From: Gemmatimonadaceae bacterium
GTDB lineage: Bacteria > Gemmatimonadota > Gemmatimonadetes > Gemmatimonadales > Gemmatimonadaceae
Reading direction: 5' to 3'
Assembly: GCA_036273715.1 (NCBI GenBank)
Contig: DASUHB010000062.1
Coordinates: forward strand, 62,001-126,000
DNA: 64,000 bases
Below, piece after piece: positions 51,154-60,829 of the stretch (position 1 is its first letter; each line of letters opens with the position of its first letter). The notes under the pieces are model-generated. The model had not been told where the DNA came from, did no database searches, and saw only the letters and a program-made list of their open reading frames with translations. Both the position numbers and the translations under genes were made by a program.

Positions 51154-53775
51154 GTGCGGCTCACCACGCTCGATTGGATCATCGTCGCGGTCAGCCTCGG
51201 CCTGTGCTACCTGCCGGCGTTCTTCTACATCCGGCGGTCGCAATCCGGGCTCGCTGAATTCTTTGCGTCGGGGCAGTCGGCGCCGTGGTGGCTCGTCGGC
51301 ACGTCGATGGTCGCCACCACCTTCAGCACCGATACGCCTAACCTGGTCACGGACTTCGTGCGCTCGCACGGCGTGTCCTACAACTGGGTGTGGTGGGCCT
51401 TCCTCCTCACGGGAATGGCCACGGTGTTCTTCTATGCCCAACTGTGGCGCCGGTCGGGGGTGCTCACCGACCTCGAGTTCTACGAGCTGCGCTACGCGGG
51501 GAAACCGGCCGCGCTCGTGCGCGGATTCCGCGCCGTCTATCTCGGGCTGTTCTTCAACATCATGATCATGTCGACGGTCACGCTCGCCGCGATCAAGATC
51601 GCGAACGTGATGTTGGGGTGGGACCGGCTCGAAACGGTGGTGATTGCCGGCACGGCGTGCGTGCTCTTCGCGTCCATCTCCGGGCTGTGGGGTGTGCTCA
51701 CCACCGATATGGTGCAGTTCGCGCTGGCGATGATCGGTGTGATTGCCGCGGCGGTGGTGGCGCTCCAGCAGCCACAGGTTGGCGGACTCACCGGCATGCT
51801 CACCAAGATCAGCCCGAAAACGCTCAACCTGCTGCCGGATTTTTCGGACACGTCGCTCACGTTGAGCGTGCTCGTCATCCCGCTCACCATCCAGTGGTGG
51901 TCGGTGTGGTATCCGGGTTCGGAGCCGGGCGGCGGCAGCTACATTGCCCAACGCATTCTCGCCTCGCGCAACGAGCGGCACGCGCTTGGCGCCACGCTCT
52001 GGTTCAACGTCGCCAACTACGCGCTCAGGCCATGGCCATGGATCATCGTTGCGCTGTGCTCGATGCTGGTCTTCCCGACGTTAGGCGACATCCACCGCGC
52101 GATGCCGCACGTCGAGCCGGCGCTCATCGGCAACGATCTTGCCTACCCGGCAATGCTCACGCTGTTGCCGGTGGGGATGAAGGGGCTCATCATTGCCGCG
52201 CTCTTCGCCGCGTATCGATCGACGATGGAGACCCATCTCAACTGGGGCTCGTCGTACCTGATCATCGATTTTTATCAGCGGTTCGTCGCTCCGGGGAAGA
52301 GCGAGCGGCATTATCTCTGGGCATCGCGGTCGCTCACCGCGATTCTGATGATCGCCGCGGGCGCGTTTACGCTGTTGCTGTCGACGGCGAGCGAGGCGTT
52401 TCAGCTGTTGTTGTCGGTGGGCGCTGGCACGGGTCTCATTTACTTGCTGCGATGGTATTGGTGGCGGGTCAACGCGTGGAGCGAGATCTCGGCGATGGTG
52501 TCGTCGTTCGCGGTCTCGATCGCGTTCTTCGCGGCGCGGAAGTTAGGCGCGCAGGTCGCCGATCCCGTGCCGCTGCTCGCGACCGTGGCGGTCACGACGG
52601 TGGTGTGGATCTCGGTCACGCTGCTCACCGCGCCGGCCGACGATGCGACGCTGCTCCGGTTCTACGAGCTCACGCGACCGTCGGGCCCGGGATGGAATAG
52701 AATCCGAGCGGCGTCTCGCATCGCTCCTTCGCCGGACAGTTTGCCGCAGATGATGCTCGGCTGGACCGCCGGCGTGGTCTTCGTGTACGCGGGGTTGTTC
52801 GGCACCGGCAGTGTGGTATATGGGCGCCTAACGCAATCCGCCATCTGGCTGGTCGCGTTCGTGGTGAGCGGCGCGGTGCTGTGGCGCGTCGTGCGCCGTA
52901 TCTGGTCGGCCGACCGCCCCAAGATGGCGGGCGCCGACACCTCGGCCGTGGCCGCCGAGCACGAGTGCACGAAGGCGGTGATCCTCGCGCGGGGGATGGG
53001 CACGCGCATGCGCGAAGCGGATGACGGCGTTGCGTTAGGCGTGGCCCAGGTAGCGGCGGCGGATGCCGGGGTGAAGGCAATGATTCCGGTCGGCCGGCCC
53101 TTTCTCGACTACGTGGTGAGCGCGCTCGCCGACGCCGGATTCACCGACGTGTGTCTCGTCGTCGCGCCGGAGTCCGATGCGATTCGCGAATACTACACGC
53201 GCACGGCGCCGCCCACGCGAGTGCGGATTGCGTTCGCCGTGCAGTCGGCGCCGATCGGAACGGCCGACGCGGTGCTCGCCGCGCACGACTTTACGCGGGG
53301 CGAGCCGTTCGTGGTGCTCAACGCCGACAACTACTATCCTGTCGAGGCGCTGGCACGCCTGCGGACCACGCGCGGACCGGCGGCGATCGGGTTCTCGCGC
53401 GATGGTCTGCTGCGCGACGGCTCCATTCCGGCGGAGCGCATCGCCGCGTACGCGATGCTGGACGTCGCGACGGATGGCACGCTGCGCCGGGTGATCGAGA
53501 AGCCCGATGCCGCGGCGTACGCGCGACTCGATCGCTCGCTCCCGGTGAGCATGAATGTGTGGCGACTGACGTCCGAGTTTTTCCGCGCCTGTCGCGACGT
53601 GCAGCCCTCGCCGCGCGGCGAGCTCGAGTTGCCGCTCGCGGTCCAGTACGCCATCGATGTGTTAGGCATGCGGTTCTCGGTGGTTCCTGTGGACGGGCCG
53701 GTGCTCGACCTTTCGCGCCGCTCGGACATTCCGCGCGTGGCGGCCGCGCTCGCGAGCGTGGACGTGACGCCGTAG
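51154..53775 (+). CDS. Sodium:solute symporter fused to a sugar-1-phosphate nucleotidyltransferase
   Basis: One uninterrupted 873-codon frame encodes two proteins' worth of function. Residues 1-590 are a sodium:solute symporter with about 13-14 spans (TSMVATTFSTDTPN, FNIMIMSTVTLAAIKIANV). From residue 607 a nucleotidyltransferase follows: AVILARGMGTRM is the nucleotide-binding loop (the usual Ala is Arg), KAMIPVGRPFLDYVV, NADNYYP for the metal Asp, and GELELPLAV. The NTP-transferase half would be cytosolic. Between galactosidases and galactokinase, the likely substrate is galactose and galactose-1-phosphate, giving UDP-galactose without GalT; this is inference. Confidence 0.85.
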   Translation: MRLTTLDWIIVAVSLGLCYLPAFFYIRRSQSGLAEFFASGQSAPWWLVGTSMVATTFSTDTPNLVTDFVRSHGVSYNWVWWAFLLTGMATVFFYAQLWRRSGVLTDLEFYELRYAGKPAALVRGFRAVYLGLFFNIMIMSTVTLAAIKIANVMLGWDRLETVVIAGTACVLFASISGLWGVLTTDMVQFALAMIGVIAAAVVALQQPQVGGLTGMLTKISPKTLNLLPDFSDTSLTLSVLVIPLTIQWWSVWYPGSEPGGGSYIAQRILASRNERHALGATLWFNVANYALRPWPWIIVALCSMLVFPTLGDIHRAMPHVEPALIGNDLAYPAMLTLLPVGMKGLIIAALFAAYRSTMETHLNWGSSYLIIDFYQRFVAPGKSERHYLWASRSLTAILMIAAGAFTLLLSTASEAFQLLLSVGAGTGLIYLLRWYWWRVNAWSEISAMVSSFAVSIAFFAARKLGAQVADPVPLLATVAVTTVVWISVTLLTAPADDATLLRFYELTRPSGPGWNRIRAASRIAPSPDSLPQMMLGWTAGVVFVYAGLFGTGSVVYGRLTQSAIWLVAFVVSGAVLWRVVRRIWSADRPKMAGADTSAVAAEHECTKAVILARGMGTRMREADDGVALGVAQVAAADAGVKAMIPVGRPFLDYVVSALADAGFTDVCLVVAPESDAIREYYTRTAPPTRVRIAFAVQSAPIGTADAVLAAHDFTRGEPFVVLNADNYYPVEALARLRTTRGPAAIGFSRDGLLRDGSIPAERIAAYAMLDVATDGTLRRVIEKPDAAAYARLDRSLPVSMNVWRLTSEFFRACRDVQPSPRGELELPLAVQYAIDVLGMRFSVVPVDGPVLDLSRRSDIPRVAAALASVDVTP

Positions 53776-53850
53776 CCTGGGACGCCCTGGGGTTTGAGCG
53801 GAAATGATTTGATGATGGCGCCGAGCGCGGTCGAGCCATCGTGTGGCGGC

Positions 53851-54861
53851 ATGACGCCTCCTCGCATTCCAGATTCGCAGCTCAGCGCGGCGCCCGATTC
53901 GGCGCGTCGCTTTCGATTCATGGAGATGGTGCGGCGCAGGATGCGCGAGCGCCGATACAGTCCGCGGACGGAGGCAGCATACTGCCACTGGATCGTGGCG
54001 TACATCCGCTTTCACGGCCGACGACATCCCCGAGAGCTGAGCGCCGAATGCGTGCGTCAGTTTCTCTCGCACCTTGCCGTCGAGCAGCGCGTGGCGGCCA
54101 GCACACAGAACCAGGCGTTGGCTGCCTTGGTCTTCCTGTACGAGGCCGTGCTGCACACACCGCTGCCGCGCGTCGACGGAATCACGCCTGCGCGCCGAAC
54201 ACGGTTCCTGCCGGTGGTGCTTTCACCGAGAGAAGTGAAGCTTATCCTGCGCCGTCTCCATGGCGACGCGCAACTTTGCGCATTGCTGATGTACGGCAGC
54301 GGTCTGCGTCTAACCGAATGTGTCTCTTTGCGGGTGAAGGACATCGATCTCGATCGCGGCGAGATCGTGGTTCGTCAGGGAAAGGGAAGGAAGGATCGGC
54401 GCACGCCGCTGGCGGAAGTGACTCGACCGCTTCTCGCGCGGCGTCTTCGAGACGGATTGGGAGTGTTCCGGCGTGACCGGAAAGCCGGTGTCAAAGTGGA
54501 CGGGGTGAGCGTCTCGTACCTGCGAAAGGATCCGAACGCGGACGCGTCGTGGAGCTGGTGGTACGCGTTCCCGGCGACGCGGACGTTTGTTGACTCAGAC
54601 GGAGCCCGTCGTCGTCATCATCTCCATCCCACCGTCGTGCAGCGAGCGTTCAAGCGGGCCGTGAACGAGCTCGGCCTGGTCAAGCGTGCGACGTGCCACA
54701 GCCTTCGTCACTCGTTCGCGACGCATCTACTCGAGTCGGGTTCGGATATCCGCACGGTGCAGAAGTTGCTCGGCCACGCGAGTGTGCAGATGACGATGCG
54801 GTACACGCACGTGCTGAATCGCGGTGGACTTGGCGTTCGGAGCCCCGCCGATCGCCTCTAG
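53851..54861 (+). CDS. intI: Integron integrase (tyrosine recombinase)
   Basis: The 336 aa length matches class 1 IntI. All catalytic residues are visible: Arg153 (GSGLRLTE), His283 and Arg286 (HSLRHSFATHL), His309 (LLGHASV) and Tyr318 (RYTHVL). The IntI-specific extra segment between Arg153 and His283 is present (WSWWYAFPATR ... RRRHHLHPTVVQRAFKRAV), which separates it from phage or XerC-type recombinases. The ending GGLGVRSPADRL is also IntI-like. ATG 53851 is chosen for length; in-frame ATGs at 53812/53815 exist and no strong ribosome-binding site is seen. It points toward the cassette array, the unusual orientation. Confidence 0.95.
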   Translation: MTPPRIPDSQLSAAPDSARRFRFMEMVRRRMRERRYSPRTEAAYCHWIVAYIRFHGRRHPRELSAECVRQFLSHLAVEQRVAASTQNQALAALVFLYEAVLHTPLPRVDGITPARRTRFLPVVLSPREVKLILRRLHGDAQLCALLMYGSGLRLTECVSLRVKDIDLDRGEIVVRQGKGRKDRRTPLAEVTRPLLARRLRDGLGVFRRDRKAGVKVDGVSVSYLRKDPNADASWSWWYAFPATRTFVDSDGARRRHHLHPTVVQRAFKRAVNELGLVKRATCHSLRHSFATHLLESGSDIRTVQKLLGHASVQMTMRYTHVLNRGGLGVRSPADRL

Positions 54862-54889
54862 CGCTCCCACCGACGCTCGGCGCTTTTTT
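54860..54889 (+). terminator. Terminator after intI
   Basis: AGCG (54860-54863) pairs with CGCT (54881-54884) and CCGA (54870-54873) with TCGG (54877-54880), with a bulge on one side, and a run of six T follows. It would stop integrase transcription before the cassettes. Confidence 0.6.
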
Positions 54890-54923
54890 CACCACCGCGT
54901 TGATTCTTTCGCGCGGCTTCGCA

Positions 54924-55017
54924 GCCTAACTATCGGCGCACGCTTTCTTGAACGCCTCTAACTGCTGATCAGCCAACTCGATCACGTTGCAGTCGGCCTC
55001 CGTGCGTATATTTAGGC
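54924..55017 (+). repeat. attC-like site with damaged core, next to intI
   Basis: It begins with a perfect inverse core GCCTAAC (54924-54930) and ends with TTTAGGC (55011-55017), where the first base of the GTTRRRY core is T instead of G. Bases 54925-54942 pair with 55001-55016, as in a folded attC. The cleavage position is the changed base, so it may be inactive, or it may be part of attI. Confidence 0.6.
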
Positions 55018-55084
55018 AGCGGAGCCTTGCGGCATAAGCAAAAAGTCCGCAGCATAACGCAGTTGCGTAAGACAATCGACAACT

Positions 55085-55114
55085 TTGACACGCAGCAGGG
55101 ATATATAGTTAGGC
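55085..55114 (+). promoter_or_regulatory. Possible cassette promoter and first core site (attI candidate)
   Basis: TTGACA (55085-55090) and TATAGT (55104-55109) resemble -35 and -10 boxes but are only 13 bases apart, so promoter activity is doubtful. GTTAGGC at 55108-55114 overlaps the second box and is the first intact core after intI, which makes this the best candidate attI crossover point. The AT-rich stretch 55018-55107 has no gene. Confidence 0.3.
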
Positions 55115-55172
55115 CGTAACATACGCAGGATCGGCACGCATGGCGTGTTGTGCGTCAGCCACAGCGGACGCT

Positions 55173-55931
55173 ATGACTCCTCTGAATGGTATTCGTGTTC
55201 TAATAACCGGCGCCACGAGTGGCCTCGGCGCGGCGATGGCGACGGCCCTCGCCGCCGCCGGTGCGCGTGTCCTGGTGACGGGCCGCAACGAGGAGCGCGC
55301 CGCCGCTGTTGCGCGCGCCCTCCGGCCCGGCGCGGTCTCGTCGGCATTGGATGTCCGGAACGAGCACTCGGTGGCCGCGTGCGTCGCGCGCGCGACCGAG
55401 GCCTGGGGCGGTATCGACATGCTGGTGAACAACGCTGGGATCGGCATGCGGACAGTCAATCCGCGCTTTCTGACCGAGCCCCAGCCGTTTTGGGAGGTGA
55501 CGCCAGCCGGCTTCCGCGACGTCATGGAGACGAAGGTTGTCGGCTGCTTTCTGATGGCGCGCGCGATAGTGCCAATGATGCTCCAACAGGGCGGCGGGCG
55601 TGTGGTGAATATCTCGATGAATGAGGAGACGATGATCCGCCGCGGCTTCGTGCCGTATGGGCCAGCTGGGGCTGGCGTCGAGGCACTATCGCGCGTGATG
55701 GCGGCTGACCTCGCGGAGACATCCGTGACAGTCAATATGCTTCTTCCCGGTGGGCGCGGGACGGACACGGGGATGGTGCCCGACGACGTCCCTGCAAACG
55801 TTCGCGCGCGCCTGCTGGACCCAGCGGTGATGGGCCCGCCGATTGTATGGCTCGCGTCGGACCGTGCCGCAGGCGTCCATGACCGGCGCATCGTTGCGAA
55901 TGAGTTCGACCCCGCCGCGTTCCGGCCGTGA
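55173..55931 (+). CDS. Cassette gene 1: short-chain dehydrogenase-like protein lacking catalytic Lys
   Basis: The 252 aa protein has a Rossmann fold with TGATSGLG for cofactor binding and NNAGIG. The catalytic Ser148 (NISMN) and Tyr162 are kept, but the Lys of YxxxK is Gly166 (YGPAGAG where YGPSKAA is usual). That should cripple normal hydride transfer. ATG 55173 is preferred; an ATG at 55140 gives an 11-residue extension. It is the first cassette after the integrase and lies on the same strand. Confidence 0.88.
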   Translation: MTPLNGIRVLITGATSGLGAAMATALAAAGARVLVTGRNEERAAAVARALRPGAVSSALDVRNEHSVAACVARATEAWGGIDMLVNNAGIGMRTVNPRFLTEPQPFWEVTPAGFRDVMETKVVGCFLMARAIVPMMLQQGGGRVVNISMNEETMIRRGFVPYGPAGAGVEALSRVMAADLAETSVTVNMLLPGGRGTDTGMVPDDVPANVRARLLDPAVMGPPIVWLASDRAAGVHDRRIVANEFDPAAFRP

Positions 55932-55975
55932 GCCCGGCCGACACTGTGCGTTCCGCCGCCAGCTTCGCGCCTGCG

Positions 55976-56073
55976 GCCTAACAAACGTTGCAGCTGACGA
56001 ACGATTGAAGGATTGCGCATGCTTCGCATGCGCTCTTATTTGACTCGTTCGCAGCTGAACTTGGGCGTTAAAT
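55976..56073 (+). repeat. attC site of the SDR cassette
   Basis: Inverse core GCCTAAC (55976-55982) and core GTTAAAT (56067-56073) enclose a folded arm: GTTGCAGCTGACGAACGA near the left end pairs with TCGTTCGCAGCTGAAC near the right, leaving extra-helical bases as expected for attC. A second inner hairpin (GCGCATGC-TTC-GCATGCGC) lies at the tip. It is one of the best-preserved sites. Confidence 0.9.
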
Positions 56074-56107
56074 CACACACGCATCCTATGCAGATCAACG
56101 ATCTCGC

Positions 56108-56904
56108 ATGACGCCGTCAAGTACCCTTGATGAGCTCCTCGCTCATTTGGAGACGATGCTCCGGACGAGCACTTATGCCGACGCAACCGGCAACGGCCTC
56201 CTCGTCCGCGGTCGCTCGCCCGTCCGGTGCATTGGGGCCGCGCTCAATACATCGTTCGCCACCATCGACGCCGCGATTGAAGGCGGGGTCGATTGCCTCT
56301 TCGTCCATCACGCGCCATGGGCCTCCATCGATCTCGATCTCCATGCGCCGAAGCTCGAGCGTCTGAGGCGGGCGGGAATCTCTCGCTCTACGCGGCGCAC
56401 GAAGCCCTTGATCGTGCGGCTACTCCTAGTGTCGGCTCCGTTCTCGCGCGGCTCGTCGATCTCACCATCGAGCGCGAAGGCCAGGATGATCTCATCGTCG
56501 GCTTGGCGCCGTCAATGACGTTCGATGCTTGGACGGCTCTCGTTGCGGAACGCCTGATAACCCCGGTGCGTGCGTGGCCCAACGCCTCCGACTTCCAGCG
56601 CGTTGCCGTCGCCCCTGGAGGGGGCGGCAGCACAGCGTACCTGGCCCAAGCCATGGCGCTGGGGTGTGACACCTTCTTCACTGGCGAAGGCTCGCTCTAC
56701 ACCGAACTCTTTGCGCGCGAGCAGCGGCTGTCCCTCGTTCTCGCGTCGCACAATGCGACGGAGTTTCCAGGCGTGTGCCACTTTGTAGAATCGGTCGCGG
56801 CGGCGCTCGGGCTTGAGTACCGAGAGATACGAGAGGCCGCGTTTATAACCGGCGGTGGCCAAGCCCCGATCGAACATGGTCGCCTGTCACCTAACGAAGG
56901 CTGA
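56108..56904 (+). pseudogene. Cassette gene 2: NIF3/DUF34-family protein, frameshifted
   Basis: The first 92 codons (from ATG 56108) encode a NIF3-like N-terminus with the metal motif HHAPW. The remaining family sequence (SLYAAHEALD ... APGGGGSTAYLAQAMALGC ... TGEGSLYTE ... ASHNATEFPGV) lies in another frame down to TGA 56904. The shift falls at a TCTCTC run (56379-56384); removing one TC joins the frames as GIS-LYAAH. This looks like slippage. It could be a pseudogene, a programmed shift or a sequence error. NIF3 proteins bind two metals; function is debated. Confidence 0.8.
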
Positions 56905-56983
56905 ACCTGCCGGGCGAGCGAGTGATTGCCTCGCTCGGGTCGGCTCGTTATGATTCGCCCGCGGGTTCGATCGGGCGTTAGGC
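56889..56983 (+). repeat. attC site of the NIF3 cassette
   Basis: Inverse core ACCTAAC (56889-56895) overlaps the end of the NIF3 frame; the core is GTTAGGC (56977-56983). The GAACCTGCCGGGCGA arm pairs imperfectly with TTCGCCCGCGGGTTC, and GCGAGCGAG pairs with CTCGCTCG at the tip. Confidence 0.85.
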
Positions 56984-57015
56984 TGACACCTAGACGAGAG
57001 AATCGCCAGCTGCCG

Positions 57016-57759
57016 GTGCCACCAGAGGGCCTTCGCGTAGCGGTCGGACCGTTCGCCGATGCGGAAACCTTTCTCCAATCGGGAAGGGAGACCCTGGCGC
57101 TGCTAACTTCCCTCTGCGAACTCCGCCCCGATCACGCGGTGCTCGATGTCGGCTGCGGTAGTGGGCGGGTCGCGCTCCCGTTAACCGAATATCTTTCGCA
57201 CTCCGGTAGCTACGTCGGCTTCGATCCGGTCGCTGGGCTAATTCAGTGGTGCCACACTCACATCACAGCGCAATATCCAAACTTCCATTTCAGGCACGTC
57301 GATGTCCACAATGCCTCCTACCATCCGGAAGGGAGGTGGCCGGCCGCGGCGATTCGATTCCCCTGCGAACCGGGAAGTGTCGATGTCGCCCTATTGAGTT
57401 CCGTGTTCACGCATCTCCTCCCAGAGGATGTCGCAGCGTACGTTAGAGAACTCCGGCGTGTCCTGCGACCCGGCGGCCGGTGTCTGGTCAGCTACCTCTT
57501 GATGAACGACGAGGCGCGCGCGGCTGTCGAAGCGGAAACGACCATCTTTGATCTGCAGTACCGGCACGGGCCGTATGTAAGCTTCTCGCGGGAGCACCCG
57601 ACGGAAGGCTTGGCCTACGACGAAGTTTACGCCTTGAAGACCCTGCGTGAGGCGGGGCTGGCGATCGAAACCGTACGCTACGGCACGTGGCGTCACATCC
57701 ATAGTTTCGCGGTCGAACATGATTGGGTGGTCGCCCGCAAGCCGATTTCCGCGGCCTAA
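57016..57759 (+). CDS. Cassette gene 3: class I SAM methyltransferase
   Basis: The 247 aa protein has VLDVGCGSGRVALPL (SAM loop), YVGFDPVAGLI and VALLSSVFTHLLPEDVAAYVRELRRVLRPGG, typical of small-molecule methyltransferases. The start is uncertain; GTG 57016 lies shortly after the cassette's left boundary (56983), while the frame itself stays open into the attC. The stop TAA is inside the inverse core of the next attC, so the coding region fills the cassette fully. Base composition is visibly less GC-rich than the chromosomal neighbours. Confidence 0.85.
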   Translation: MPPEGLRVAVGPFADAETFLQSGRETLALLTSLCELRPDHAVLDVGCGSGRVALPLTEYLSHSGSYVGFDPVAGLIQWCHTHITAQYPNFHFRHVDVHNASYHPEGRWPAAAIRFPCEPGSVDVALLSSVFTHLLPEDVAAYVRELRRVLRPGGRCLVSYLLMNDEARAAVEAETTIFDLQYRHGPYVSFSREHPTEGLAYDEVYALKTLREAGLAIETVRYGTWRHIHSFAVEHDWVVARKPISAA

Positions 57760-57887
57760 CGAATTGCTGAAGCGGATGAGTGCGACTAATGCGGAAGTCA
57801 TCAGTGCTCGGTGCCTGGCGGGTACCGTGATTGGTCAGCATCATCGTGCTCGTGGGCTGGCCGCTCAGCGCTTAGCTCGGCGTTAGG
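57754..57887 (+). repeat. Long attC site (134 bp) of the methyltransferase cassette
   Basis: GCCTAAC (57754-57760) and GTTAGGC (57881-57887) bound the site. The segment GCTGAAGCGG pairs with CCGCTCAGC. The length is like that of Vibrio-type repeats and longer than other sites here. Confidence 0.85.
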
Positions 57888-57903
57888 CCTCAAACGGTAC
57901 GCC

Positions 57904-58323
57904 ATGGCGGAGCTGGCTGTCGGTCATTGCGCTGAGTGCGCGGCACCATTCGCCTATCGCCTCATACACAATGGGTTCAACGAATCCGCCTATGCGTATT
58001 GCGACCGTTGCGGCATGACCGCCCTCCTTGATGGCTGGTACGCGGACATTCCTCAGGCGGCGCACCTCGAGTTGCATCAGCGCATCAGCGCAGATATCGA
58101 GCCGTTCCTGCGATCGTGCGCGTGCGGCGGCCGCTTTACTGCCGGTGCGGTACCTCGATGCCCACGCTGCACTCATCCACTCGATCCCAATGACGTCGCC
58201 GACTTCATCGAGTCAAATGCTCCTGGCGCGAAGCAGGGTTGGCGATGGCAGCGGAACTGGGCTGGGCTTTACGCGATTGTCGTTGATGACCGCGTCGCAC
58301 GTGATCCGTGGCTTTCACCCTGA
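57904..58323 (+). CDS. Cassette gene 4: double zinc-ribbon protein, 139 aa
   Basis: ATG 57904 lies 17 bases after the core site. The protein has Cys pairs HCAECAAPF, YCDRCGM, CACGGRF and CPRC, enough for two zinc-binding ribbons, with a Trp-rich end (WRWQRNWAGLYAIVV). No enzyme motif is seen and no family is recognised. It may be a structural or nucleic-acid-binding protein. Confidence 0.7.
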   Translation: MAELAVGHCAECAAPFAYRLIHNGFNESAYAYCDRCGMTALLDGWYADIPQAAHLELHQRISADIEPFLRSCACGGRFTAGAVPRCPRCTHPLDPNDVADFIESNAPGAKQGWRWQRNWAGLYAIVVDDRVARDPWLSP

Positions 58324-58340
58324 GACTCAAACCGGCTGAG

Positions 58341-58434
58341 GCCTAACGTACGTTGCCGACTGAACGTGCGACTGCGTTAGCTCGCTGGGCTCGCAAGTTG
58401 TGAAATCGGCCGCGGCTGAACTGAGGCGTTGACT
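58341..58434 (+). repeat. attC site with imperfect core
   Basis: Inverse core GCCTAAC (58341-58347) and a core-like GTTGACT (58428-58434; the sixth position breaks GTTRRRY). Arm pairing is partial. It ends the zinc-ribbon cassette. Confidence 0.6.
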
Positions 58435-58456
58435 AATGCATGGGGCGTGATGACCA

Positions 58457-58795
58457 ATGACCGACTTTGCGACCGGAGCAGTTGAGGCGAACGAAAGCGC
58501 GCAGGTGTTCTGCCGTGCGCTGGATGCGCATGACTGGTCGGCCCTCAGCGCCCTCGTTGATGAGGCCTCCCTGGACGACGAGAATGGCCAGGCCGGTCGT
58601 CACGAACTTGCGCGTTCCCTCGCTGAGATCTTCGGTCCGGGTCCCTCTGCGCAGGTCTCGCGCACGTGGCTCGGTGTCGTCGCTGAACCGCCTGATCTGG
58701 CCGGCCTTCGGCGGCGACATGTATATCGTTGCTCGCGCGTAGAGATTCCGCACGAGCATAGTCTCACGTCGACCATCTTAGCGCGTGTAGGCTGA
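58457..58795 (+). CDS. Cassette gene 5: NTF2-like small protein, possibly frame-disturbed
   Basis: The frame from ATG 58457 encodes 112 residues starting AVEANESAQVFCRALDAHDWSALSALV, which looks like the first helices of an NTF2/SnoaL-type fold. Near the end, another frame reads PAFGGDMYIVAR, a better strand-like ending, after which the first frame resumes with VEIPHEH. Two compensating indels would explain this. Function is unknown and the gene may be partly degraded. Confidence 0.45.
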   Translation: MTDFATGAVEANESAQVFCRALDAHDWSALSALVDEASLDDENGQAGRHELARSLAEIFGPGPSAQVSRTWLGVVAEPPDLAGLRRRHVYRCSRVEIPHEHSLTSTILARVG

Positions 58796-58816
58796 GCGGT
58801 TGCGGGTGCACTTGGC

Positions 58817-58823
58817 GTTAGGC
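58817..58823 (+). repeat. Lone core site GTTAGGC
   Basis: This core closes the NTF2-like cassette, but no inverse core of RYYYAAC form is found in the 130 bases upstream, so its attC is incomplete or unusual. A CCGCA/TGCGG pairing near 58750 and 58803 is all that remains. Confidence 0.5.
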
Positions 58824-58846
58824 GGCAGGAGATCAGGAGACACTCC

Positions 58847-59554
58847 ATGTTAGGATGGTTCCGGAAGAAGCCCGCGTCGCCGGCAGCGCGGTCCGCTCCG
58901 CCGGCCCCGCCCACAGCGGGGCACCCGCTGCGCGAGCTCCTGTTCGGCGACTATCCGCTGGAGGCGTGGGCGCCCGGCGGCGACGCGCCCCGGACCGGGG
59001 AGCCGTGGACGCGATTCGCCGACGCGCTCGCGCGGCGCGAGCGGGGCGACGTGACCGGCGCCCGGAACGCGCTCGCCGAGATCGTGCGCCAGCCGGGGCT
59101 CGAATCGCGTCACCGCGTCCAGGCGTGGCATGCGCTCCGCGACCTGGGCCAGGACCCGCCGCCCACGGAGGCGAAGCACGTCTACGGCGTCGTCGTCGAC
59201 ATGCCGACGCCGGCGGGGCTCGACACGCTCGCCGCGTACGAGGACCGTTCGGCGCGCTTCCTGAGCCACGGTGGCGGGGCCGTCGTCTGGGAGCATCCCG
59301 ACGCCTCGCTCGACGCTGCGGTCGACGCGCTGCTGGCAGCGGGCCGCGCCCTCGTCGGACCGATCGGCCCGTGGGCGGGTGTACGGCCTCCGCTGCCACC
59401 GGGCGAGGCGCGCATCAGCATCCTAACGCCCAGCGGACTACACTTCGGGCAGGGGCCGGTCGGCGTATTCCGCGGAGACGCGCGAGCGGCGCCGGTCCTG
59501 GCGGCGGCGACGGCGCTCATGCAGGCGCTCATCACGAAGGCCGTGCCCCGTTGA
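58847..59554 (+). CDS. Cassette gene 6: GC-rich protein of unknown function, 235 aa
   Basis: The frame starts at ATG 58847, 24 bases past a core, with a GGAG near 58830. It begins MLGWFRKKPASPAA, then GHPLRELLFGDYPLEAW, a helical repeat-like middle and the end FRGDARAAPVLAAATALMQAL. Codon third positions are strongly GC, unlike the other cassettes, so this gene matches the host chromosome's composition. No domain is recognised and no signal peptide or span is seen. Confidence 0.7.
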   Translation: MLGWFRKKPASPAARSAPPAPPTAGHPLRELLFGDYPLEAWAPGGDAPRTGEPWTRFADALARRERGDVTGARNALAEIVRQPGLESRHRVQAWHALRDLGQDPPPTEAKHVYGVVVDMPTPAGLDTLAAYEDRSARFLSHGGGAVVWEHPDASLDAAVDALLAAGRALVGPIGPWAGVRPPLPPGEARISILTPSGLHFGQGPVGVFRGDARAAPVLAAATALMQALITKAVPR

Positions 59555-59559
59555 GCGCA

Positions 59560-59641
59560 GCCTAACGAATCGTTGACGATGACGAAGCGGCGCCCGCTCT
59601 CCGCGCCTAACTCACACGAATCATCGGAAGGACGATTGATG
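59560..59641 (+). repeat. attC site lacking its core
   Basis: GCCTAAC (59560-59566) is followed by well-paired arms: AATCGT with ACGATT (59632-59637) and GATGA with TCATC. Where GTTRRRY should follow there is GATGACG, and the next gene's ATG starts there. A second GCCTAAC lies at 59605-59611. The site is probably decayed. Confidence 0.55.
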
Positions 59642-59794
59642 ACGGACGTGAAAGAGTTTGGCTCGACCACGATCGTCTCGGGCCCATCGTGGACTGGACA
59701 CGGGTTTACCGAGCCCAAAGCGCACTCGTTCTGGCTCCAGTTCTGTTGTCTTTCTCGCATTCGGGATTCCTTTGCAGCAGAGCCGGAGCGTTAG
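59639..59794 (+). CDS. Cassette gene 7: 51 aa protein, unknown
   Basis: ATG 59639 is 7 bases after GGAAGG. The peptide (MTDVKEFGSTTIVSGPSW ... FWLQFCCLSRIRDSFAAEPER) has no known motif. The frame is open upstream to 59573. Its stop TAG is inside GTTAGCC (59791-59797), the right end of an attC-like hairpin. Coding is plausible from the ribosome-binding site and position, but it could be a remnant. Confidence 0.4.
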   Translation: MTDVKEFGSTTIVSGPSWTGHGFTEPKAHSFWLQFCCLSRIRDSFAAEPER

Positions 59795-59797
59795 CCA
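59734..59797 (+). repeat. attC-like hairpin with altered core
   Basis: Bases 59734-59748 pair with 59776-59790 over 15 positions with one mismatch and three G-T pairs; GTTAGCC follows at once (59791-59797). No inverse core precedes the left arm. It lies inside the end of the 51 aa frame. Confidence 0.5.
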
Positions 59798-59841
59798 GAC
59801 AATTGTTGCGCCTCGGTTTCATGTACTATTGAGATGCCGCG

Positions 59842-59940
59842 ACGTGGTTGTCCCGAGGAAGGCCGGCGCAGTGGGTTCGATTCCCACGCACGTTATTGGG
59901 CGCCGGAACCTTGGCCGGGTTCGAGTCCCGGGCGGCCTTT
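59842..59940 (+). other. Tandem tRNA T-arm-like hairpins in a small cassette
   Basis: Two copies of a T-arm pattern lie 45 bases apart: GTGGG-TTCGATT-CCCAC near 59872-59888 and CCGGG-TTCGAGT-CCCGG at 59916-59932. Each is followed by seven bases that could be an acceptor 3' strand and then TTGG-like ends. GACGTGG (59842-59848) can pair with GCACGTT after the first copy. No D-arm or anticodon arm is complete, so neither is a standard tRNA. A TTG-start frame (59848-60048, ending in the attC) runs through it, but its protein looks like a by-product apart from the last 29 codons. Confidence 0.45.
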
Positions 59941-60044
59941 GGACGGATCAGCAGGGCTATGTTCCAATTCCTCGATGCGGTCCAGAGGAGCGACCTAGAC
60001 GGCGAAAACGATCCCGTCCGCCGCCGCCTGGCAAACGGAAGTTA

Positions 60045-60113
60045 TTGAACAGCTTGGAGCTGCGCCGCAAACGACAATGAGATGTCCTTGCAGCTCGACT
60101 CTGGCGTTAGGCG
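60045..60113 (+). repeat. Short attC site (69 bp)
   Basis: Inverse core ATTGAAC (60045-60051; the fourth base breaks RYYYAAC) and core GTTAGGC (60107-60113). GAGCTGC pairs with GCAGCTC. The length is like that of class 1 integron cassettes. Confidence 0.7.
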
Positions 60114-60152
60114 GCCGACACCGGTTACACCGCGACAGAGGGGGTCTTCGTC

Positions 60153-60761
60153 ATGGATGCAGCCGACACGAGGAGCCGATTCGCCGCTCTCGGCGCGTCA
60201 CGCGTCCCAAGCGCGCCGTCGGCGGACAGTCGGCGCGCGGTGACGCGACGCTGGCAAGGCCCGCGTTTCGCCGCAACGATGGTCGGTCTGTCACTTGGCG
60301 TACTCGGCCCGCGGCTCTCGGCACAGACCGCCGCCGACACCGCGGCCGTCCGCGGCGTTGTCCACGATGAGATCACGGCCTGGGATCATGGCGATGCGAC
60401 CGCCTATTCGCGTCACCTCGCGCCTAACGCAACGTTCACGAACATCCGCGGCCAGTACTTCACCGGCTATGCCGGCTTTCTCCACCAGCACGAGACCATC
60501 TTCAAAGGCATTTTCAAGCACACGACGTTGCAGCAGGACATCGTGTCGCTCCGCTTCCTGGGTGCCGATGTCGCCGTTGTCGAAGTGCTGACGGCGGTCA
60601 GCGGCGTGACGCAGGCCCGTCCAGGCATGACCTTCGACCAGCGTGGGCGTTTGCGCACGCGCTTGCTGCAGATTCTCGCCAAGCAGGCCGGCGAGTGGAA
60701 GGTCGTGGCCTATCACAATATCGACGTGAAACCCGGGGTACCTGTCCCCGATCCGCGGTGA
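60153..60761 (+). CDS. Cassette gene 9: secreted NTF2-like (SgcJ/EcaC-type) protein, 202 aa
   Basis: After ATG 60153 a basic lead and a hydrophobic segment (FAATMVGLSLGVLGPRLSA) form an export signal, then a DUF4440/SnoaL-like domain: VRGVVHDEITAWDHGDATAYSRHLAPNATFTNIRG and KVVAYHNIDVKPG. These folds bind small ligands or act as light enzymes; no catalytic set is evident. It is the last cassette before galK. The attC that should follow is not well formed. Confidence 0.75.
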   Translation: MDAADTRSRFAALGASRVPSAPSADSRRAVTRRWQGPRFAATMVGLSLGVLGPRLSAQTAADTAAVRGVVHDEITAWDHGDATAYSRHLAPNATFTNIRGQYFTGYAGFLHQHETIFKGIFKHTTLQQDIVSLRFLGADVAVVEVLTAVSGVTQARPGMTFDQRGRLRTRLLQILAKQAGEWKVVAYHNIDVKPGVPVPDPR

Positions 60762-60822
60762 CGGCCAGCGGACAAGTCAGCGTCTGCTGCGTGCCGTGGG
60801 ACTGCCACGATTCGACTCACTC

Positions 60823-60829
60823 GTTAGGC
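60823..60829 (+). repeat. Right-hand boundary core GTTAGGC
   Basis: This is the last core of the array, 4 bases before the galK start. No matching inverse core is found upstream. It either closes the final cassette or was the chromosomal heptamer that received it. Its AGG could also help ribosome binding for galK. Confidence 0.55.

Follow-up and report, generated by a model that had tools for sequence, protein, structure and literature searches.

A probable complete integron of reverse architecture between two sugar-operon genes of a Gemmatimonadaceae bacterium

In a 64-kb stretch of DNA from a Gemmatimonadaceae bacterium (contig DASUHB010000062.1; hereafter the window, to which all coordinates refer), we identified what, judged from its sequence, is very probably a complete integron of reverse architecture, with an integrase gene (intI), an attI region and a cassette array of roughly seven to eight members. 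Textbook integrons carry intI back to back with the cassettes and have separate promoters for the integrase and the cassettes. Here, intI lies on the cassette strand and reads toward attI, and the same arrangement was found in a sample of intI loci from the phylum Gemmatimonadota.

The intI gene is one uninterrupted open reading frame (ORF) encoding 355 amino acids from a TTG codon (53794–54861, + strand), with ATG codons at 53851 (residue 20) and 53920 as alternative starts. The original prediction took 53851 as the left limit; this position is indeed an ATG, but the frame is already open from 53794. The product matched TIGR02249 (integrase_gron) with 375.6 bits over all 315 positions, and the cut-off of 265 was passed by nothing in 14 control genomes. 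Its best solved structure was the Vibrio IntI (2a3v), which aligned from end to end (E = 2.6e-77) and placed the catalytic residues at R172, K197, H302, R305, H328 and Y337. The IntI-specific patch was also present (W256, then RRRHH from residue 272), in agreement with the predicted complete integrase carrying its catalytic residues and the IntI-specific insertion. A tree of 66 integrases was built by a quick method, with support from the Shimodaira–Hasegawa-like approximate likelihood-ratio test (SH-aLRT) only and two Xer rows from the same genome. As the proposed check of IntI-clade membership anticipated, the window integrase fell in the IntI part of this tree, apart from both Xer rows and within a supported Gemmatimonadota group of six IntIs (nearest, G130, 71% identity). 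Family score, residues, patch and tree position together identify an IntI-type tyrosine recombinase. The first possible start is 18 bp past the upstream stop (53775); with 53851 or 53920 as the start, this gap would be 75–145 bp. Since a normal promoter lacks room upstream of the first possible start, intI may be read from the surrounding sugar operon, and it probably depends at least partly on operon read-through.

Candidate attC sites were scored with a covariance model (R1), built solely from 12 attC-like sites of five other Gemmatimonadota intI loci (L092, L093, L102, L110 and L119). Two-sided change was seen at 11 of its 23 pairs in the training set, far above slid controls, although part of this paired change arises by construction, since the sites were picked for arm complementarity. 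Three sites in the window scored well: attC1 (55976–56073; 66.8 bits, E = 3e-15), attC2 (56889–56983; 44.9 bits, E = 2e-9) and attC3 (57754–57888; 35.8 bits, E = 6e-7). The original prediction had named the same three, the third ending one base earlier, and had proposed a covariance model as the check; R1, from which window sites were excluded, bore them out. Two weaker matches were obtained, to a degraded attC4 (58341–58433; 21.7 bits), whose R′ box is GTTGACT and whose folding was no better than that of shuffled sequences, and to a split attC with its left half at 59560 and its right half extending to 59796 (23.4 bits). A further predicted attC at 60045–60113 was missed by R1, and only the right half (L′/R′) of this remnant (60042–60112) is convincing. 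By sequence, a right-half attC follows the cassette 5 gene, ending at 58823, and a last R′ box, GTTAGGC (60823–60829), lies 4 bp before the galactokinase ATG (60834). All of these sites are on the + strand.

A complete integron calls for at least two attC sites with R″, L″, L′ and R′ boxes and extrahelical bases, and the three good sites provide them; attC1 is complete, with a bottom-strand fold bearing two extrahelical bases (DNA fold z = −4.75). No further R1 match with E < 0.3 occurred within the window, and on 135 kb of other DNA from this genome the best match reached 16.8 bits, with none comparable to the array. The extrahelical bases make attC sites asymmetric, and in relatives R1 gave ∼97 bits on one strand versus 27 on the other. 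Therefore, its attC matches in the window, confined to the + strand, fix the orientation of the array. The window has 92 copies of GTTAGGC/GCCTAAC, 13-fold more than expected from base composition, so bare box pairs are weak evidence here and the folded arms carry the case. Indeed, when bare RYYYAAC/GTTRRRY boxes were paired and their arms scored, sites in other parts of the window were flagged as well, and this procedure gave way to the covariance model. On a class 1 stretch (L164), R1 gave no good score for the attCs there, which indicates that it is specific to the Gemmatimonadota attC type and is no general detector. Rfam gave no match at the gathering threshold, and the exact attC-end pattern had no match in viral contigs.

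The attI region (54920–55114, +) lies between intI and the first cassette. It contains repeated arms of the forms CGCAGCMTAAC and TATAKTTAGGC (CGCAGCCTAAC at 54920, TATATTTAGGC at 55007 and CGCAGCATAAC at 55048), and its last TATAKTTAGGC copy is the core TATAGTTAGGC (55104–55114), with crossover predicted at the GTTAGGC of 55108. Its G+C content of 55% is low for this genome. The same genome has a second, degraded integron on contig C37, with an intI fragment and attCs 3′ of that fragment; it aligned with window positions 54658–55112 at 71%. The similarity ran to the core GTTAG at 55108 with none clear beyond, as expected of an attI followed by different first cassettes. This end-point and the repeats place attI beside intI at the start of the array. 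Together with the phylum sample, the end-point supports a position of attI at the 3′ side of intI, in line with the prediction that cassettes are recruited there. In relatives, the motif GCRGNNTAA occurred at 2.66 per kb in the 330 bp 3′ of intI versus 0.038 in 5′ flanks (∼70 times); this density is descriptive, as the motif was picked after viewing these sequences, and it was present in 18 of 44 loci. An arm resembling TTAGRCTGC / GCAGYCTAA was also repeated several times, in inverted and direct orientation, in 54920–55114 and in the 3′ flanks of intI in L086, L087, L098, L101, L105, L112 and L041; these copies may be additional IntI-binding sites.

To place this arrangement in the phylum, 40 intI loci with flanks were taken from Gemmatimonadota genomes and R1 was run on both flanks and both strands. 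R1 scored 105 attCs at 30 bits or more, spread over 27 of the 40 loci; all lay 3′ of intI on the intI strand and none lay 5′, with matches in five of the loci partly by construction because the R1 training sites lay 3′ of intI there. A line of evidence free of R1 agreed: in the listed draft contigs, wherever a contig end fell within 2 kb of intI (21 cases), it fell 3′ of the gene, which fits an array there, because a repetitive array would break assembly. Reverse architecture is the rule in Gemmatimonadota, the sole arrangement seen in loci that could be checked. Hence, the original prediction was right that intI points the same way as its cassettes, but what it called the rarer arrangement is, within this phylum, the only one seen. 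In a literature search that left most subscription papers outside its reach, we found no paper stating this rule for Gemmatimonadota. An IntI above the family cut-off was present in 138 of 395 sampled Gemmatimonadota genomes. The IntIs of L040 (Acidobacteriota) and L045 (Myxococcota) nest among those of Gemmatimonadota, on contigs that end shortly 3′ of intI, and reverse architecture may extend beyond the phylum. The window's own genome holds further attC clusters on C26 (L149, 7–8 sites), C30 (L150, 4), C37 (L151, 2–3 beside the intI fragment) and C65 (L152, 1).

Based on integron biology, IntI would bind the attC of a free cassette in its folded bottom-strand form and recombine it with the double-stranded attI at the core GTT. 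Each new cassette would thereby enter directly 3′ of intI, read away from it and push older ones toward galactokinase, leaving all cassettes co-oriented with intI and the newest adjoining its 3′ end. The decay of the distal attCs, which would be the older ones, fits this order of entry. Several observations weigh against a complete, phylum-wide reverse integron. Four or five of the window sites are degraded or half-sites, cassette 2 is frameshifted, and a consensus scan of 54862–55108 gave no sigma-70-like site for a cassette promoter (Pc). In the phylum sample, 13 of the 40 loci lacked an attC of at least 30 bits, and since the 3′ flank runs to several kb in a number of them, contig ends alone do not explain the lack. 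One family (f1) dominates both R1 and the sampled loci, with few loci from others (e.g. G164 and G320). Decay might also mean that the architecture is real and that IntI or its sites no longer work, so that the array only decays. We consider such a dead or dying integron unlikely. The half-sites and weak distal sites and the frameshift speak for it, as do same-genus genomes that lack a strong intI match and have at most a few attCs, and a locus (L073) that retains just the last residues of intI. However, the intI frame is open with all catalytic residues present, attC1 folds as a textbook site and the attI core is intact.

The genes assigned to cassettes are all on the + strand. Cassette 1 encodes a short-chain dehydrogenase/reductase (55140–55931; PF00106, 4e-45), and cassette 2 a DUF34/NIF3-like protein (56108–56904) split by an apparent frameshift near 56385, with PF01784 matched on both halves. 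The shift (region 56355–56420) lies near a TCTC run and appears to reflect either a pseudogene or a sequencing error. Cassette 3 encodes a class I methyltransferase (56926–57759; PF13649, 1e-16), the true start of which is probably 3′ of attC2. The cassette 4 product (57904–58323) has zinc-ribbon-like cysteines and matched no family above cut-off, while the ORFs of cassette 5 (58457–58795), followed only by the right-half attC, and cassette 6 (58847–59554) have no assigned function. The last cassette encodes an SgcJ/EcaC-type SnoaL-like protein (60153–60761; TIGR02246, 1.2e-16). A defence role for the cassettes was rejected, as PADLOC gave just a methyltransferase-fold match. An ORF-poor cassette stretch (59859–59939) looks tRNA-like, with two T-arm-like segments, GGTTCGATTCCC and GGGTTCGAGTCCC. 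Its nearest Rfam family was the tRNA-like mascRNA, below threshold, and ARAGORN found no tRNA.

The integron is flanked upstream by a gene for a sodium/solute symporter (SSS)-type transporter/nucleotidyltransferase and downstream by galactokinase (galK). In a sister genome of the same genus (G362), the 7.05-kb unit (53776–60829) is absent and the same two genes, 93.8% (transporter/nucleotidyltransferase) and 85% (galactokinase) identical to those of the window, lie 13 bp apart. The proposed look at this locus in related genomes therefore found the platform missing from a sister species, so either its arrival here or its loss there is fairly recent. The simplest reading of these comparisons is that the 7.05 kb was gained in the window's lineage; the platform would have inserted between the two genes, leaving galK behind the cassette array. 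The description of the integron as sedentary, which implies many near-identical attCs and a stable locus, did not hold, given few and diverse attCs and a locus that is empty in G362. Non-att GTTAGGC copies were depleted inside the integron (3 versus 9.7 expected; P = 0.013), as expected of foreign DNA, and this gives weak independent support for a foreign insert. How the unit joined galK was also considered. IntI itself might have fused it through a genomic (attG) site resembling GTTAGGC immediately upstream of galK, since the insert ends on the right precisely with an R′ box, four bases from the start codon, and GCCTAAC occurs near the galK start in G357. This route seems doubtful, as no such box is present at the site in G362 and no att-like site was seen at the left end of the insert. 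Alternatively, the insertion could be old and ancestral at the locus, with the integron deleted in the sister species. That galK and the transporter gene lie apart in G357 suggests an unstable locus, but the two genes also adjoin each other in G241, G090 and G040, from two other genera, which makes an ancestral insertion improbable in comparison with a gain in the window's lineage.

The over-representation of GTTAGGC extends across the genome. We counted 3,754 copies of CGTTAGGC in this genome, versus 281 of the reversed word, and in the window GTTAGGC/GCCTAAC occurs about once per 0.7 kb (e.g. at 51336, 53661 and 61757). GCCTAAC was the most over-represented heptamer in 179 kb of this genome (229 copies, with 6.5 expected from trinucleotides), the word was equally frequent on both strands, and in 24 window genes 35 of the 43 rare TTA codons and 11 of 18 CTA codons lay inside it. 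Among the copies compared with G362, 14 of 18 were shared, at 87% identity. Counts in 390 Gemmatimonadota genomes were sharply two-sided, with most below ∼60 copies and others between hundreds and 4,469; high counts occurred in three of the four genomes of this genus and in members of about ten other genera. The fourth (G228, same genus label) has just 3 copies versus thousands in its genus mates, and searches in it for galK, the transporter gene and attC returned nothing, which may reflect genuine loss, incompleteness of the assembly or misplacement of the genome. We rejected the signature as an integron product, since ten enriched genomes (G357, G362 and eight others) lack a strong intI match and 133 intI-bearing genomes show no enrichment; what association there is (Fisher P = 0.03) is weak and confounded by phylogeny. 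Because enrichment is not tied to intI and attC boxes vary in the enriched G080, the word is closer in character to a DNA uptake sequence or HIP-like word (PMC4390886) than to anything the integron would produce. It is very improbable that the core heptamer is functionally linked to the integron, as a field of potential IntI secondary sites or as an uptake-like word biasing the DNA captured. The literature search, with the reach given above, found no report of the signature. That the box pairs are mere chance copies of this word, as their density in the window might suggest, and that no integron exists is virtually out of the question, because an independent covariance model matched this array alone, beside an IntI with a high TIGR02249 score.

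If the whole phylum is reversed, integrase transcription can run into the newest cassette, altering the coupling of capture to expression. Once thought rare, the arrangement was present in all Gemmatimonadota relatives that allowed a check. The phylum is common in soil, and the question is testable because a strain with ∼82 attCs is in culture. The empty site in G362 offers a before-and-after view of a platform moved into an operon, and the GTTAGGC signature is a stranger by-product of the analysis than the integron itself.

Both reverse integrons and Gemmatimonadota integrons are already known. Reverse intI orientation was described for Treponema chromosomal integrons, including T. brennaborense with an R box GTTAGGT beside intI (PMC3607928), and one paper describes it as a general feature of typical Spirochaetota IntIs (PMC9668308); among the phyla listed as carrying integrons is Gemmatimonadota (PMC8618304). 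The window integron resembles those of Treponema (PMC3607928) in orientation and differs from them in phylum. The IntegronFinder 2.0 paper (PMC9024848) lists the integron of Gemmatirosa kalamazoonensis KBS708 among the largest on plasmids, in passages that leave its orientation aside. This megaplasmid integron, in a cultured strain (L165 and L166; NZ_CP007129, 810.8–856.2 kb), is of the same family and attC type as ours, with its array 3′ of intI on the same strand, but has ∼82 similar attCs over 45 kb compared with three good sites in the window. The window IntI branches among those of Gemmatimonadota; its supported group also includes class 1 IntI1, to which it is 51% identical. In contrast to the window array, which lies 3′ of intI on the same strand, the class 1 array lies 5′ of intI and is divergent. 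The window attI shares a ACGCAGCAGGG ... AGTTAGGC pattern with the class 1 attI1 sequence, a likeness that serves as a lead and is no test.

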